64,000 nt of DNA from Balneolaceae bacterium. GTDB lineage: Bacteria > Bacteroidota > Rhodothermia > Balneolales > Balneolaceae. A program made the position numbers and the translations under genes. The first letter of the stretch is position 1. Each line of letters opens with the position of its first letter. Positions 33,639-44,269 of the stretch are shown here, one piece after another. The DNA is taken from NCBI GenBank assembly GCA_017640665.1, contig JAEPQE010000002.1:620001-684000 (forward strand), given 5' to 3'. The notes under the pieces are model-generated. The model had not been told where the DNA came from, searched no databases, and saw nothing but the letters and a program-made list of their open reading frames with translations.

Positions 33639-33670
33639 AAAATCCCGGTCTCTTCTTCAGAAACCGGGAT
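33636..33670 (-). terminator. Intrinsic terminator for the minus-strand ankyrin gene
   Basis: ATCCCGGT at 33642-33649 pairs with ACCGGGAT at 33663-33670 around a 13-base loop. Read on the minus strand the hairpin is followed by a run of six U (33641-33636), so it ends transcripts from the ankyrin gene. Confidence 0.8.
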
Positions 33671-33695: not shown

Positions 33696-34076
33696 TTAGT
33701 GTGCCCCAGCCTCGCTTAAAGTGGCGGCTACTGAAGTATGTTGTTGTGCTACCGCCTGATCCAAAGCCGACCAACCGCGATCGTCGTGAACGTCTACTTC
33801 ACTTTCGTTTTCGATTAATAGCTGAACTATTTCGTTAAATCCGTTTGTTGAGGCCCAATATAAAGCCGTCGTTCCTCTGTTATCTCTTTGATCTACCTCC
33901 GCTCCATGTTTAATCAGCAATTTGGCTACATCAATATGTCCGTGTTTTGATGCTTTCAAGAGTGCTGTGCGATCGTGTTCGTCTTTCGTGTTTACGTCAA
34001 CTCCATCGTTAAGGAGCCCTTTTACTGTCTCAAGGTCGCCATTTTCAGCGGCATCAAGAAATATTTCATCGTTCAT
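33696..34076 (-). CDS. Ankyrin-repeat protein
   Basis: 126 residues, made almost entirely of ankyrin repeats: NGDLETVKGLLNDGVDVNTKD, RTALLKASKHGHIDVAKLL, TTALYWASTNGFNEIVQLL and SALDQAVAQQHTSVAATL. No signal peptide, so it acts in the cytosol as a protein-binding module. It has a strong SD (AGGAGG) 6 bases before its ATG, unusual in this SD-poor window. It stands 109 bases downstream of the MscS gene on the same strand, so it may be part of that unit. Its end is marked by the terminator at 33636-33670. Confidence 0.88.
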   Translation of the reverse strand: MNDEIFLDAAENGDLETVKGLLNDGVDVNTKDEHDRTALLKASKHGHIDVAKLLIKHGAEVDQRDNRGTTALYWASTNGFNEIVQLLIENESEVDVHDDRGWSALDQAVAQQHTSVAATLSEAGAH

Positions 34077-34184
34077 AGATTTCCTCCTACAGTAATTAAT
34101 ATTTAGATGTGCATTCGCATTGTAATTTTCGACTGAAACAATGTCAAATTAGAATCCAAAATGTGGATGAATATTTGATGAAGA

Positions 34185-35144
34185 TCAGGAAACCCCTCTT
34201 TTTACCTGAACACTTTCAGGCACCATTTCAAGAGTATTGAGTTCTTTAAGGATTAGCTCTGTGATTTCACTCTTTAATAAAAACTCGTAGCGTATATCCA
34301 GTACATACGCTTTTACTTTAAGCTGTATCACATAATTCTGTTCGAATACTTTGTTCTCTGAAACTATTACGATTGGTTTTTTTAAGTATACATATCGGGA
34401 TGATACCGCTGCCCGCCTGGCTATTTCTTTCACCTTTTCTACATTCACTGTTGCGGGAAGGAAGATGGAAGAAACCACTTGACAATCGAGCGCTCCCGAA
34501 TTTGTATTGGAAACAGCGTTGCTTACTAAATCCGCATTGGGAAGTGAAACCAGAGAATCATCCGGAGTAACAATACGAGTAGAACGTAAACCTATTTCAG
34601 TTACTTCTCCGTAATAGCCATCCACTTCAATTTTATCTCCTACCTGAAACGGGCGGTCCATGATAATGATAAACCCACCAAATATATTCTTCAGGATATC
34701 TTGTGCTGCAAATCCAACAGCAATACCCACGGAAGCTCCAACTGTTAAAATAGTTTCTATGGGCGGAGAAATAATCCCTGCTATAACAATAAAAATAGCT
34801 GTTGACCAGATCAATACATTCAGGAATGGAACTACGCGCTTTAGGATAAGGCGGTAAGAGGAGCGTTTCTCTGCAAGAGCCCCAAGAAGGAAGGAAAGTA
34901 CCCTGGTGAAAAAATATGTTCCGAACAGAACTACCAGGCTCATGAAAATCTTAGTGAACGAAAAGAAATCTTTGAACTGGCTGACCTTAGTGTCCACTGT
35001 CTGCCCAATAGTAGAATCCGGTTGTGCAATTGCTACTGAATCCTGAACAGTTGCCAGTGAATCCTGAGCTACAAGAGATTCCATTGCAAAAAGCATAACT
35101 AATATGCTCAAAATCACCATTGATATGTAGTTTTTCCTATTCAT
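34185..35144 (-). CDS. MscS-family mechanosensitive channel
   Basis: 319 residues. The start MNRKNYISMVILSILVMLFAMESLVAQ is a signal peptide, then three hydrophobic segments lead to the pore/TM3 and upper beta domain: VGIAVGFAAQDILKNIFGG, FIIIMDRPFQVGDKIEVDG and LRSTRIVTPDDSLVSLPNADL, all MscS signatures. It forms a heptameric pore in the inner membrane. Its ATG overlaps the stop codon of the large ATPase gene by one base (TAATG, at 35144), so the channel is made by coupled translation. The N-terminal extension of about 40 residues with a soluble linker is unusual for a minimal MscS. Confidence 0.92.
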   Translation of the reverse strand: MNRKNYISMVILSILVMLFAMESLVAQDSLATVQDSVAIAQPDSTIGQTVDTKVSQFKDFFSFTKIFMSLVVLFGTYFFTRVLSFLLGALAEKRSSYRLILKRVVPFLNVLIWSTAIFIVIAGIISPPIETILTVGASVGIAVGFAAQDILKNIFGGFIIIMDRPFQVGDKIEVDGYYGEVTEIGLRSTRIVTPDDSLVSLPNADLVSNAVSNTNSGALDCQVVSSIFLPATVNVEKVKEIARRAAVSSRYVYLKKPIVIVSENKVFEQNYVIQLKVKAYVLDIRYEFLLKSEITELILKELNTLEMVPESVQVKRGVS

Positions 35145-38119
35145 TAGTGTAAAATATTCCTGCTTTTAAGCATCCTTACTACCTGTCTGTATACCAAATC
35201 ATTAAGTGCATAATAGCCACTTTTTTGAGCCACCAATAATCCTCTCGATGCCAGCCTGGAGATTATCATTTCTGTATCAGACTCCGTTTGATTTAGAATC
35301 AGTGCGAGTTCTGAAGCTGTTAAAGAGTCATGCAGGATAAAACCTGACAGAGCAAACTGAGCCTGAGCATCCAAACCATCCAGGCTTGTTGTATTCATAA
35401 ATTCAAGCGATTCTATGGTGAAAAAGACTTCCCCGATCTCTTTAATAGACCGGATCCAGAGAATCATTGCAACCGTCGCGTTTCCTTCGGCTAGGTTTGT
35501 CAGTTTTTCAAAATACTTGTTTTGAAGAAATTCCTGCTCGGCTTCCTTATCATCTAAATACTTTTTATAAGCTCTGCTTTTTTGAGTAGAAGCATCCGGT
35601 ATATACTCCAATTGATACCCGCTTGCTTTTTGGCGTTTCAAAATAAGCGATTTCATCTGATCTGCATTCAGATTATCTGTAGTTATGGTATGAGAAAAAT
35701 ACTCCCCAACACTAAATACCACGTTCAGAAAATCCCATGCGTATCTGGAGCAAGTTACCACCCATAATACCTCTCTTTTAGTACTCGAAATAACGTAGAG
35801 AAGATTTTTAATTGCTTCATATCCCGACATATTTCTGAGGTAACAATTCTGAAGGTTTTCAATAATTATTACACTTCCCTTTCTTTTCTTTTTGATTTCA
35901 GCTACCAAATCTTCCGGGTTGTCTGACTCAGATAATCCTAACGTTTTTGAAACCTCTTTCAGAATTAAGTCACGTTTCCAAAATGTTTTTGTAAAGGAGA
36001 GGTTATAACTTTTTTCGCCTTTAAATACATCCTCAGTAAGAAAACGAGTAAGTGTACTTTTACCACTGCCTTTTTCCCCTAGCAAATTAATGCTTGCAGG
36101 AAATCCTCCTTTCCATAATTCCAACGCCTTTCTGCAATTATCAAAATACAATGGGTTTTGGATAAAAAAGCCTGGTTCTATTTCCCTTCTGAAATCAAAC
36201 AACCTCCGGTAAATAAAGGGAAGCTCTTCAAGCTTTTTATCGGTCTCGTATAGAAACGTAGCCAGATTTGTACTCTCCACATTTTGAGATACCGGCTTTT
36301 TCAGGCCGAGAAACCCACGTACAATATCATCATACTGGCGGTATTTTCGGGTTATAAATCTTCTGGATAAATCAGCCCGATCTACAGAATTAGCCCAAAA
36401 CACCGTTAGCTTAGTTCCAAAATCGCCTGCAGATTCGGTGACCTTCAATTGGGTGTCTGCCCATTTGATTTCACTTACATCCTGTTTAATCAATAGCGCG
36501 GAAAGCTTATTAATTAATATTTCATTTTGGGTAATTACTTTCTCCGTAAGTGCTTTTCTTTGTTCTTTTAAATCTTCCTCAATTTCTTCAATGCTAGTGT
36601 GGCTTCTCTCTAAACTCTTGAGAGCAATAGAAACTGGCTCCTCTTCCTCCTTTTTAGAAACTTCATCAATCACATCCAGGTTAGTTTCGATAATCTGAAC
36701 AACCTCCTGATACTGCTCGATATATTGAGCAAGTGAGGCTTCCGGATTGATCGATGAAGCGTCGAGCTCAGCCGCAATGTGCTTATTCATCATCCGCAAC
36801 ACAAAACGCTGCCATTCTACTTTTTTTATCGAAAACGAAGGCTTCTCCCCTTCTATGTTCAGGCCTTCAATGATTGCTCCTTGCTCGGGCTGTTTTGAAG
36901 AATACCCGGTAATTTCTTCAACATAGTCATCCAGCAACGAACTCAAATATTTTTGTTCAAGTGCAGATTGAATAGGCTCTATAATCTCTGCATTCGTTAG
37001 TTCCGAAACTTTAGTATGCACCGACTCGCAATGTGCTACTAAATTATTAATACTAAGTTTTTCAGAAGTTTCCAGTTCCCTGATCCCTTCTTTCACAGCC
37101 TCAGCAAGGTGTTTATGTCCCGAAACAATCTTCTCCAGATAAAACGATTGAATACGTTCTTCCAGATCATCTTCTTTTTGATCTATCCCTTTTTCCAGAG
37201 TTTTCAAACTCAATAGAAGTTCCAGCCTTTGAGCCAATGCATCTTTCAATTCCAGCCAACGGGAGTTACTTGCTTTCAGGTCTGAACTAAATCCGGTTTT
37301 TTCTTTCTCAAGGACCTCATCATCAAATTTAGAAGAAGAAAGCTCAACTGTACCCACCAGCTCCAGGATCTTTTTTAATTTGTCCTCGACAGATGTATAA
37401 GCTTTGCTAAGCTTTTTTTGCTGAAGACTAAATTCTTCGTTGTAAGTTTCTATCAATCCTGAGAGTAATTCATCGTAAGGCTTCCGCTCTTTAATTTCTT
37501 CTTTTTCCTGCTTTGGTTCCCCTTCTTTTTGTTGAATTTCTTCAGGATGTGACCAAATCTGAATCGCTTCAAATACTCTTGCTATAAATCGGTATTGCGC
37601 CTGTTTCCAGAGAATGATTTCCGGTTTGAGACGAAAAAGTAGAATCCGGACGATATTTTTTAAATGAACTTCACGAACGGCAATTTCGAACTCTAATTCC
37701 GGTTTTTTTAACATTCTTCGGAAAGCATTGGAAACAGAGTGACCCGTTTTTCTTATTCCTCTTCTTGCTCTCTTAACTAGTTTTCCTACCGAAATATAAA
37801 AGGTATCTCCTTCCCGCGAGTTAAAATGAGACTCATTCTGAGGAAGAATAATAATTTCCGGAAGACTTGAAGTTGCTTCTTCGATTGCCTCAACCCAGAT
37901 TTCATCCAGATTTTCCAGCTTTGATTCTTTAAGTGAAGTTAATTTCTGAACCGCTTCAATCGGAAAACTAGCATCATTTTCAGAAATGCTGGCTTTGAGT
38001 TTCCCTTCAACATCTTTCTTTTGTGCCTGCGGAATATGCTCAATAGCCTTTGCAAAAACCGGGAATACAGATTCATTAAAATCGTTAATAAGCTTTTCTA
38101 CGGAGTACCCCGGTTTCAT
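35144..38119 (-). CDS. Large coiled-coil P-loop ATPase (STAND/AAA-like) coupled to MscS
   Basis: 991 residues, soluble. About residues 1-650 are mostly helical with charged coiled coils (for example KEEIKERKPYDELLSGLIET and EVSKKEEEEPVSIAL). Then a NTPase domain: LLGEKGSGKSTLTRFL (Walker A near 683), SVIIIENLQNC (Walker B near 750), EVLWVVTCSRYAWDFL (sensor, near 790). From about 905 comes a winged-helix-like end (SELALILNQTESDTEMIISRL). This order is that of STAND or AAA16-type regulators. The one-base overlap with the MscS gene (TAATG) and lack of other partners point to a joint function: nucleotide-dependent signal sensing linked to channel gating or placement. I know no description of such a pair; defence, osmotic or envelope-stress roles are all open. 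Confidence 0.72.
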   Translation of the reverse strand: MKPGYSVEKLINDFNESVFPVFAKAIEHIPQAQKKDVEGKLKASISENDASFPIEAVQKLTSLKESKLENLDEIWVEAIEEATSSLPEIIILPQNESHFNSREGDTFYISVGKLVKRARRGIRKTGHSVSNAFRRMLKKPELEFEIAVREVHLKNIVRILLFRLKPEIILWKQAQYRFIARVFEAIQIWSHPEEIQQKEGEPKQEKEEIKERKPYDELLSGLIETYNEEFSLQQKKLSKAYTSVEDKLKKILELVGTVELSSSKFDDEVLEKEKTGFSSDLKASNSRWLELKDALAQRLELLLSLKTLEKGIDQKEDDLEERIQSFYLEKIVSGHKHLAEAVKEGIRELETSEKLSINNLVAHCESVHTKVSELTNAEIIEPIQSALEQKYLSSLLDDYVEEITGYSSKQPEQGAIIEGLNIEGEKPSFSIKKVEWQRFVLRMMNKHIAAELDASSINPEASLAQYIEQYQEVVQIIETNLDVIDEVSKKEEEEPVSIALKSLERSHTSIEEIEEDLKEQRKALTEKVITQNEILINKLSALLIKQDVSEIKWADTQLKVTESAGDFGTKLTVFWANSVDRADLSRRFITRKYRQYDDIVRGFLGLKKPVSQNVESTNLATFLYETDKKLEELPFIYRRLFDFRREIEPGFFIQNPLYFDNCRKALELWKGGFPASINLLGEKGSGKSTLTRFLTEDVFKGEKSYNLSFTKTFWKRDLILKEVSKTLGLSESDNPEDLVAEIKKKRKGSVIIIENLQNCYLRNMSGYEAIKNLLYVISSTKREVLWVVTCSRYAWDFLNVVFSVGEYFSHTITTDNLNADQMKSLILKRQKASGYQLEYIPDASTQKSRAYKKYLDDKEAEQEFLQNKYFEKLTNLAEGNATVAMILWIRSIKEIGEVFFTIESLEFMNTTSLDGLDAQAQFALSGFILHDSLTASELALILNQTESDTEMIISRLASRGLLVAQKSGYYALNDLVYRQVVRMLKSRNILH

Positions 38120-41987: not shown

Positions 41988-42359
41988 ATGCAAAAGTGGT
42001 TCCCGGCTTTATTGATTCTTATAACCGTTGTTTTCGCTGGTTGTAATAAGAAAGAACTGGTTCCAAAACCGGAAAATCTGATCCCCGAGAAAACGTATGT
42101 AAAAGTAATTACTGAACTCCAATTATTAGACGCCTGGATTTATACCAGTGAAGAAGTAACTAATCCCGATTCCATTATGCTGGAGATGTTTACCTACTAT
42201 GGAATTACTGAAACTCAGTTCGAACAATCACATGCTTACTATCAAAGCGATCCGGAAAATCATACTGCCCGTATTGATTCAGCACTAAATATTTTGGAGA
42301 AAGAACAAAAAAGGGTGAATCAATCTTCAAAAGAAGACGCCGATCCTGAAAGAAGATAA
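41988..42359 (+). CDS. DUF4296-type lipoprotein
   Basis: 123 residues. MQKWFPALLILITVVFAGC is a lipoprotein signal. The mature part (ENLIPEKTYVKVITELQLLDAW and TYYGITETQFEQSHAYYQ) matches DUF4296, a family of unknown function in Bacteroidota with a helical fold. The 3' end overlaps the 3' end of recQ on the opposite strand by 40 bases. The C-terminal tail is charged and lacks further features. Confidence 0.8.
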   Translation: MQKWFPALLILITVVFAGCNKKELVPKPENLIPEKTYVKVITELQLLDAWIYTSEEVTNPDSIMLEMFTYYGITETQFEQSHAYYQSDPENHTARIDSALNILEKEQKRVNQSSKEDADPERR

Positions 42360-44269
42360 TACCCCTCTTTTTGAGGATCAGAAACAACCAGCCCCTCTTC
42401 CACTAAATATTGTAGGCAACTGATAATTCGTTCTTTGTGCCAACCTGTTTCTTTTTTGAGTTCATACACACTTTTACCATCCTCAATCAATGTATTAAAT
42501 GTCTTTCGAATGTCTTCCGTTGTCACCTCTTCTCGCTCCTCAAGCATTTTTTCACAGTTATCACAATGCCCGCATTTCTCCGCTTCGATATCCCCGAAGT
42601 ATGTACGTAAGTAAACCTCCCTACAGCCTTTAGTTTTTGCATATCCGTTCATTAAATCTAATTTTTTAAGCAGATTCTTCCTGTAAGATTCTACTTCGGG
42701 TTTAGAAACCGGAACTTCTTTTGATCGAGCTTCCAGCAACTTGATAAGATTACGTTCCGGATAGACAGTAAACATCAATACGTGGTCGTTTTGCATAAGC
42801 ACATTCAAGGCTTTGATCAAACCATTTTTTGAAACTGAAAGTTTTTCCATCACCATTTCCAGCTCCAGATCAACCATGTCAGCGTAAGCATGATGTCCGA
42901 ACATACGCTCCAGTTTATCCATGAATTCCGCTTTTTCAGGGTTCTGACAACGTTCCTTAAACTTGCCCATCATTTCAGGACTTAGCGTAAACTGGACACT
43001 TACCATAGGTGGGATTTCAGATTGAGTTACCAAAATTCCAAACTGTTCCATTAATCGAATAGAAGAAGCACACACAGCCATAGGTAAACGGGATCGTGAT
43101 TGTACTTTTGAAAGTTCGAAAGCAGCCATTTCACTCATTTCAGAACCCACGGCCAGCATCAAAACATCACATAAAATAGTATAGGCCTTCTGTAACTGTT
43201 CCCAATTAGGATAATTCTCTTCTATCCTTTTTTGGGCTTTGATAAAATCAGAATGCCTGTAAAAAAGAATAGGAAAGCTTTCCTCTCCATCTCTACCTGC
43301 ACGTCCTGCTTCCTGATAATAAGCTTCAATGGAATACGGCATTTCTTCATGAATTACATAACGGCAATCCGGTTTATCGATTCCCATTCCAAACGCATTT
43401 GTTGCCACTACAAGCGGCGTATCGCCTGATATCCATCGCTCTTGTATCGCTTTTCTAAGTTCGCTTTCAACACCGGCATGATAGGCTTCGGATTCAATTC
43501 CATTCTTAGAAAACCGATCTGCCCAAAACTCACAATTCTTCCTGGTTCCTCCATAAATCAATCCATCTCCTTTTCGGGAGGCTTTTTTTACAGAGCTGAA
43601 TAACTTTTCCTTTTTATTCTCTGTTTGAAATACCCACCACTTAAGATTTGGACGGCTAAAACCTTTCGAGATCACATTAGGCTCATCAAAACCAAGTGTG
43701 GTTATGATGTCCTCCTTTACCTCAGGAGTTGCTGTTGCAGTTAATGCAATCCATCTCGTTCTGTTGGCAATACTTTCCAGATTGGTTCTTATTTCCCGGT
43801 ACGAAGGTCGGAAATCATGTCCCCACTCTGAGATACAATGGGCTTCATCGATCGCAACAAGTTCAATATTCAGTTTTTCTAACTCTGCCTGAAACAAAGG
43901 AGAGCCCAAACGTTCAGGTGCGCAGTACAACAATTTGTACATCCCGTTTCTGGCATTAACCAATCGCTGTTCAACTTCATAATTCGGAATGGTACTATTT
44001 ATAAATGTAGCTGAAACCCCATGATTTTTCAGCTGCTGAACCTGATCCTGCATCAATGCAACTAAAGGAGAAATTACCAGCGTCATCCCTTCAAAAATAG
44101 TGGCAGGAACCTGGTAGCATAATGACTTCCCTCCCCCGGTAGGAAAAAGTACCAATGTTTCATTTCCATTTAACACAGATTTGACTACTTCATCCTGTCC
44201 TGCTCTGAAATCAGGAAAACCCCAATATTTTTGCAAATTCTGTTGCGCTGATTCGAAAGAGTATTGCAA
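42320..44269 (-). CDS. recQ: ATP-dependent DNA helicase RecQ
   Basis: 649 residues. SF2 motifs: FPTGGGKSLCYQ (I), AIDEAHCISEWGHDFRPSYR (II, DEAH), ALTATAT (III), ATNAFGMGIDKPD (V), EAGRAGRDGEESF (VI). A RecQ zinc site follows with CREVYLRTYFGD and EKCGHCDNC, then a winged-helix RQC. No HRDC domain is seen, as in short RecQ forms. It unwinds recombination intermediates. It overlaps the DUF4296 gene at the 3' end and is divergent from the GH114-like gene. Confidence 0.95.
   Translation of the reverse strand: MQYSFESAQQNLQKYWGFPDFRAGQDEVVKSVLNGNETLVLFPTGGGKSLCYQVPATIFEGMTLVISPLVALMQDQVQQLKNHGVSATFINSTIPNYEVEQRLVNARNGMYKLLYCAPERLGSPLFQAELEKLNIELVAIDEAHCISEWGHDFRPSYREIRTNLESIANRTRWIALTATATPEVKEDIITTLGFDEPNVISKGFSRPNLKWWVFQTENKKEKLFSSVKKASRKGDGLIYGGTRKNCEFWADRFSKNGIESEAYHAGVESELRKAIQERWISGDTPLVVATNAFGMGIDKPDCRYVIHEEMPYSIEAYYQEAGRAGRDGEESFPILFYRHSDFIKAQKRIEENYPNWEQLQKAYTILCDVLMLAVGSEMSEMAAFELSKVQSRSRLPMAVCASSIRLMEQFGILVTQSEIPPMVSVQFTLSPEMMGKFKERCQNPEKAEFMDKLERMFGHHAYADMVDLELEMVMEKLSVSKNGLIKALNVLMQNDHVLMFTVYPERNLIKLLEARSKEVPVSKPEVESYRKNLLKKLDLMNGYAKTKGCREVYLRTYFGDIEAEKCGHCDNCEKMLEEREEVTTEDIRKTFNTLIEDGKSVYELKKETGWHKERIISCLQYLVEEGLVVSDPQKEGYYLLSGSASSFED

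Follow-up and report, generated by a model that had tools for sequence, protein, structure and literature searches.

Within a 64,000-nucleotide stretch of the genome of a Balneolaceae bacterium (contig JAEPQE010000002.1, positions 620,001 to 684,000; hereafter, the window), we analyzed two adjacent minus-strand genes encoding a P-loop protein and an MscS-family channel (Table 1). Both open reading frames were present with the one-base TAATG overlap reported by a first-pass annotation of this DNA, and the 991-residue P-loop protein carries its Walker A motif and a Walker B-like segment close to where that annotation had placed them (near residues 683 and 750). The long helical N-terminal part was likewise recovered, the first 620 residues being rich in Glu, Lys and Leu, whereas the proposed winged-helix end held up in part: the C-terminus does match MarR-type winged helices, but weakly. 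Hydropathy analysis over the whole length of the protein showed no membrane segments. The partner is, by sequence, a clear member of the MscS channels, with a beta domain scoring 76.3 bits against a curated cut-off of 20.2 for PF00924 (MS_channel_2nd; E = 2e-21) and further matches to MscS in the PDB.

Table 1 Features of the P-loop protein and MscS locus in the window (TM, transmembrane segment)
Feature	Position	Strand	Basis
P-loop protein gene, 991 amino acids, coiled-coil, MscS partner	38119..35144	minus	Open reading frame
MscS-family channel gene, 319 amino acids, N-terminal signal-like helix	35144..34185	minus	PF00924; PDB MscS matches
TAATG stop/start overlap, one base common to both genes	35146..35142	minus	Sequence
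Walker A GEKGSGKS, residues 681-688 of the P-loop protein	36056..36079	minus	Sequence and alignment of relatives
Walker B-like IIIEN, residues 751-755, lacking the canonical DE catalytic pair	35855..35869	minus	Alignment
C-terminal winged-helix-like segment, approximately residues 925-991	35147..35347	minus	Profile match to MarR-type YusO, E 5e-5; conserved C-terminal end
Long helical charged N-terminal part, approximately residues 1-620; genera g2 and g5 lack it	36260..38119	minus	Composition
MscS beta domain, residues 149-215	34500..34700	minus	PF00924
TM1-TM2 loop, predicted to be cytosolic, bearing residues characteristic of MscS linked to the ATPase; possible docking site	34827..34874	minus	Comparison of linked and unlinked MscS; topology inferred from E. 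coli MscS
Ankyrin-repeat gene	34076..33696	minus	Own promoter-like site 34147..34119 (11/12) and terminator-like hairpin 33670..33642; such matches are weak evidence

We assessed how far the two genes belong together. Relatives of the P-loop protein (E ≤ 0.001) were found in 47 of 92 Balneolaceae genomes, including 40 of the 66 good ones, nearly always as a single copy; a profile search of the class recovered relatives in 91 of 199 genomes at the same threshold, the few weakest rows being marginal P-loop matches. An MscS gene with a significant family match directly adjoined the P-loop gene on the same strand in 91 of 91 assessable loci, an arrangement expected by chance at an estimated ~0.5% for a genome with eight MscS genes. 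These loci comprise 29 of the 30 designated L001-L030 (the 30th ends at its contig), seven further family loci, 36 of 40 from the class search (four end at a contig), 15 from the phylum (L139-L153), two of an SLC12 type described below and two on alphaproteobacterial plasmids; the counts are phylogenetically non-independent and sample mostly one phylum. Plasmids were the only non-phage records searched for the Alphaproteobacteria, and the plasmid finds were typed as non-mobilizable by PLSDB. The pairing, which the first-pass annotation had proposed to look for in other genomes, therefore spans the phylum and reaches the Alphaproteobacteria.

The two genes mostly overlap or stand a few bases apart. 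Their order varies: the P-loop gene leads in Balneolales, and in 27 loci from the remaining orders of the class the MscS gene leads, frequently overlapping its partner by 4 bases. That the same neighbor is retained even where the order is reversed would be difficult to account for if the two were functionally unconnected. The first-pass annotation had read the coupling as a sign of fixed stoichiometry; because the intergenic gap ranges from -44 to +13 bp within the family and the gene order flips, coupling does not show this. Inheritance of the two genes was also joint. Of 67 Balneolaceae genomes, 42 contained the orthologous MscS (E ≤ 1e-60), 41 of these also encoded the P-loop protein, and 25 had neither; in the sole MscS-only genome (G077), the MscS gene lies at position 6 of its contig, that is, at the contig edge. 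Homologues mostly unpaired within the lineage, which the first-pass annotation had named as the pattern that would undo its proposal, were thus not what we observed, as the two genes occurred in Balneolaceae together or not at all. Since three genera (g2, g3 and g11) each contain genomes lacking both, the joint absence probably arose more than once. From this comparison, the P-loop protein and MscS are a conserved two-gene system, not chance neighbors.

Next, we examined the family membership of the P-loop protein. Its best Pfam match was AAA_22 (E = 9e-4; 20 bits against a cut-off of 27), a cut-off exceeded by two relatives, L072 (29.3 bits) and L189 (31.7 bits). In the Pfam, NCBIfam and PADLOC scans, the window protein passed no curated cut-off. 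Among PDB profiles, the best match was to Cdc6/ORC chains (E 9e-6), many-domain midasin aside; the midasin matches were disregarded as sums of several weak P-loop matches. The protein resembles ORC/Cdc6-type and AAA_22 ATPases in these profile matches and in the winged helix that follows, but differs in that the matches are weak and mostly confined to the P-loop, the catalytic glutamate is usually replaced and the lysine is lost in whole clades. The first-pass annotation had called it a STAND ATPase. In Pfam, no STAND or nSTAND model matched the window protein up to E = 1, and one relative reached only E 0.09 (13 of 34 bits); as no curated Pfam or NCBIfam cut-off is passed either, the STAND assignment is not established. 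A structure predicted from the window protein and one close relative reached a predicted local distance difference test (pLDDT) score of 43.8, too poor for use. The nearest named record, a Balneolaceae metagenome-assembled genome (CP051242.1), encodes a protein 70% identical to the P-loop protein; on the basis of this record, the order, class and phylum referred to here are Balneolales, Rhodothermia and Bacteroidota in GTDB.

Shorter forms delimit the part of the protein that stays with the channel. In genera g2 and g5, the only open frames span ~440-466 amino acids, corresponding to the P-loop and C-terminal part, and are still coupled to MscS; the gap in these loci showed no separate gene for the N-terminal part. 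A minimal form from another family (L151) has 394 amino acids and accompanies an MscS of 288. Since these short forms remain paired with MscS, comparison indicates that the long N-terminus is optional and that the C-terminal P-loop and winged-helix module, kept everywhere, is the constant partner.

We then asked whether the nucleotide-binding site is that of an ATPase. The Walker A lysine is intact in the window protein, in all 12 long forms described below (L143-L150, L152, L153, L221 and L222) and in both alphaproteobacterial proteins. It is replaced by R in three Balneolaceae loci (L004-L006) and lost in five of five free forms outside the class and in 31 of 31 loci from the remaining orders of the class, where R, M, L, A, V, S or G stands instead. 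This clade-wide loss (L074-L099, L103-L105, L107 and L108) occurs even though the sequence family and the gene pairing are retained. In the alignment, the residue after the Walker B acid, the usual site of the catalytic glutamate, is mostly N, G, S, H or similar. ATP hydrolysis therefore looks dispensable in several lineages, and nucleotide binding or a purely structural role is likelier than hydrolysis in those lineages. With the P-loop lysine gone from entire clades, the relevant activity of the module is probably binding of the nucleotide and not its turnover.

The MscS partner forms a distinct group among its relatives. In a tree built from 47 linked MscS proteins and 35 unlinked paralogues, most of which share genomes with them, the linked proteins fell on one side of a branch with a Shimodaira–Hasegawa-like approximate likelihood ratio test (SH-aLRT) support of 95, a group that includes those of the fused Bacteroidota systems and the alphaproteobacterial pairs. 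As this was a quick tree with long branches at L145, L152 and L153, a single origin of the linked subfamily is supported, not proved. We also compared residues between 89 linked and 56 unlinked MscS proteins, the paralogue set being uneven. Residues typical of the linked proteins and rare in the paralogues include six in the predicted cytosolic TM1-TM2 loop (E92, R98, L99, K102, R103 and P106), and further linked-typical positions lie in the cytosolic part (N215, P230, K256, K278 and Y280). The window channel thereby differs from other MscS channels in belonging to a subfamily with a P-loop partner and a residue signature of its own, and these residues are candidate contact sites with the P-loop protein. 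On a plasmid of Caulobacter sp. NIBR2454 (L190:7292-9135), two tandem MscS genes follow the gene for the ATP-binding protein, and only the first groups with linked MscS; in L102:6460-7553, MscS is split over two overlapping frames by a frameshift or sequencing error.

Relatives in other lineages connect the module to ion transport. Outside the class, eight loci (L143-L150) encode a protein of ~1500 amino acids, with ~490 additional residues at the front. Pfam identified a PF00999 antiporter domain at residues 46-427 of the L143 protein, ahead of the coiled coil and the P-loop domain; by NCBIfam, this antiporter is nearest to CPA2, well under the cut-off. The Pfam antiporter assignment comes from L143, whose protein shares 31% identity with that of L149 over the full length. 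In CPA2 antiporters, KefC among them, a TrkA_N regulatory domain normally occupies the position held here by the module; Pfam found no TrkA_N domain in L143, nor was this nucleotide-binding domain matched in the window P-loop protein or the other fused proteins scanned. Pfam identified the gene after MscS as TrkH (PF02386) in L143 and L149; L144, L146-L148 and L150 have cassettes arranged in the same way, with a gene of similar length at the TrkH place. In L145, the long P-loop gene and MscS adjoin both TrkH and TrkA. In a further locus, L227, the P-loop gene is accompanied by a gene resembling MscS at only E 0.03 and by an unfused PF00999 gene. Before the fused antiporter, a 414-422-amino-acid membrane protein is encoded in L143 (8048-9292) and at the same place in L144 and L146-L150; it resembles the fused antiporter weakly (20% identity, E 2e-6), has no Pfam match in L143 and may be an antiporter half that has degenerated.

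Four loci (L152, L153, L221 and L222) instead encode an SLC12-like (AA_permease/SLC12) N-terminus, giving proteins of ~1700 amino acids followed by an MscS gene. The L152 protein matched KCC and NKCC chains in the PDB at E about 1e-75, L152 and L222 matched the K-Cl cotransporter model TIGR00930 at E about 1e-116 to 1e-118, below its cut-off, and all four align mutually over the transporter part. SLC12 proteins are not known to have such a P-loop module; the window protein, for its part, has no transporter part. These SLC12-fused proteins (L152:3483-8570, L153, L221 and L222:4080-9140) occur inside and outside the window's class, and one genome (G266) encodes two versions of the module, one free (L142) and one SLC12-fused (L152), each with its own MscS. 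On Picosynechococcus plasmids (H6-H9), proteins named amino acid permeases match the SLC12-like part with 36% identity over 715 residues and may themselves be SLC12-like transporters. Large proteins in L223-L225 were rejected as further fusions, their matches being weak and at the P-loop or scattered, with no MscS partner; an MscS hit in L224 (E 0.004) belongs to an opposite-strand gene, and L226 looks like an ABC ATPase. Together, the fusions, which attach the module to the cytosolic end of CPA2-type Na+/H+ antiporters or SLC12-type cation-chloride cotransporters, and the TrkH and TrkA neighbors point to ion and volume control, the direction of the envelope or osmotic sensing role that the first-pass annotation had offered as an alternative.

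The fusions also bear on two other explanations of the pair. The P-loop protein might be a transcription regulator whose winged helix binds DNA and which merely shares an operon with MscS, in line with the weak MarR-type match. We regard this as highly improbable: the same C-terminus is fused behind membrane transporters, the pairing is kept through gene-order flips, and winged helices also mediate protein contacts, for example in ORC-type ATPases. Strict pairing and translational coupling would fit an assembly or quality-control factor that folds, inserts or remodels this MscS subfamily rather than gating it. Such a role seems unlikely, although less so than DNA binding, as a module fused behind antiporters and SLC12-like transporters, at the place where CPA2 proteins normally have a regulatory domain, fits regulation better, and the loss of the lysine speaks against an ATP-driven remodeler.

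We next considered the gene neighborhood, which bears on antiphage defense, one of the two roles that the first-pass annotation had offered for the pair. Across the family, in loci that extend far enough, the pair adjoins a gene for a cell-wall amidase; where more flank is covered, genes for uridine kinase and pantothenate kinase lie farther out. An M49 peptidase gene frequently follows MscS in Balneolaceae and does so once more in the order (L073) but not beyond; this association is positional only. The ankyrin-repeat gene, earlier suggested as a third component, has its own promoter-like site, adjoins the pair in some genera only and is not part of the system; two relatives from its genus encode the product with 88-92% identity. 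PADLOC returned no match for the P-loop protein or MscS, and among ten flanking genes only a generic RecQ. This RecQ-type helicase (window positions 42320-44269, minus strand) strongly matches the DpdF and PsyrT defense models, probably as any RecQ would.

In a defense pair, the P-loop protein would sense infection and open the MscS pore, leaving the cell depolarized or killed. Sensor-plus-pore logic is known in defense, the alphaproteobacterial copies recovered from plasmid records sit on plasmids, and, as with the MscS-type effectors of nucleotide-signaling defense, a pore of MscS type shares its operon with what may be a sensor. Unlike those effectors, however, the pair matches nothing in PADLOC, has no relatives among 50,697 phage records and keeps a steady chromosomal position in the family, being nearly always single copy and beside the amidase gene. 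Its channel comes from one MscS subfamily and is not exchanged, unlike defense effectors, which shuffle, and its fusion partners are ion transporters. Defense is therefore disfavored, and we consider it very unlikely.

We regard it as probable that the P-loop protein serves the co-encoded MscS as a dedicated regulatory subunit in the cytosol, tying the valve to ion transport and osmotic control. Starting from the pairing, co-inheritance, module architecture and fusions seen by comparison, we infer that the module would dock on the cytosolic face of MscS, at the TM1-TM2 loop and vestibule, and may sense a cytosolic signal, for example ATP, ionic strength or crowding. It would set when the valve opens, coordinating ion release with uptake during osmotic change. 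Several observations weigh against this proposal. The window's own pair has no fused or adjacent transporter, the osmotic role is drawn from association, mostly in other lineages, and approximately one-third of good Balneolaceae genomes do without the pair. In addition, with the lysine lost in relatives, it is doubtful that "ATPase" describes the proteins in general.

More tentatively, the coil, P-loop and winged-helix module might be a general regulator of bacterial cell-volume ion transport, an alternative to RCK domains. It would physically link CPA2, SLC12-type or Trk transporters with a dedicated MscS release valve, so that one cytosolic sensor sets loading and release, and the window would hold a transporter-free version. 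The RCK/KTN (TrkA) domains of Trk, Ktr, MthK and CPA2 (KefB/C) offer a parallel, being a nucleotide-binding cytosolic module common to channels, antiporters and Trk; similarly, one module here is common to MscS-linked, CPA2-fused, SLC12-fused and Trk-linked systems. Unlike RCK/KTN, it shows no TrkA_N match and consists of a coiled coil, a P-loop domain and a winged helix.

MscS channels are usually viewed as stand-alone tension valves, and the portion of the open-access literature that we searched contained no description of an MscS with such a partner or of the pair. If the proposed regulation holds, some bacteria would control an MscS valve from the cytosol and couple it to ion uptake, making the pair a concrete candidate for the bacterial coordination of salt loading and release. 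The fused forms would further show, in bacteria, SLC12-like transporters bearing a regulatory ATPase-type module; the principal cell-volume transporters of animals are their relatives.

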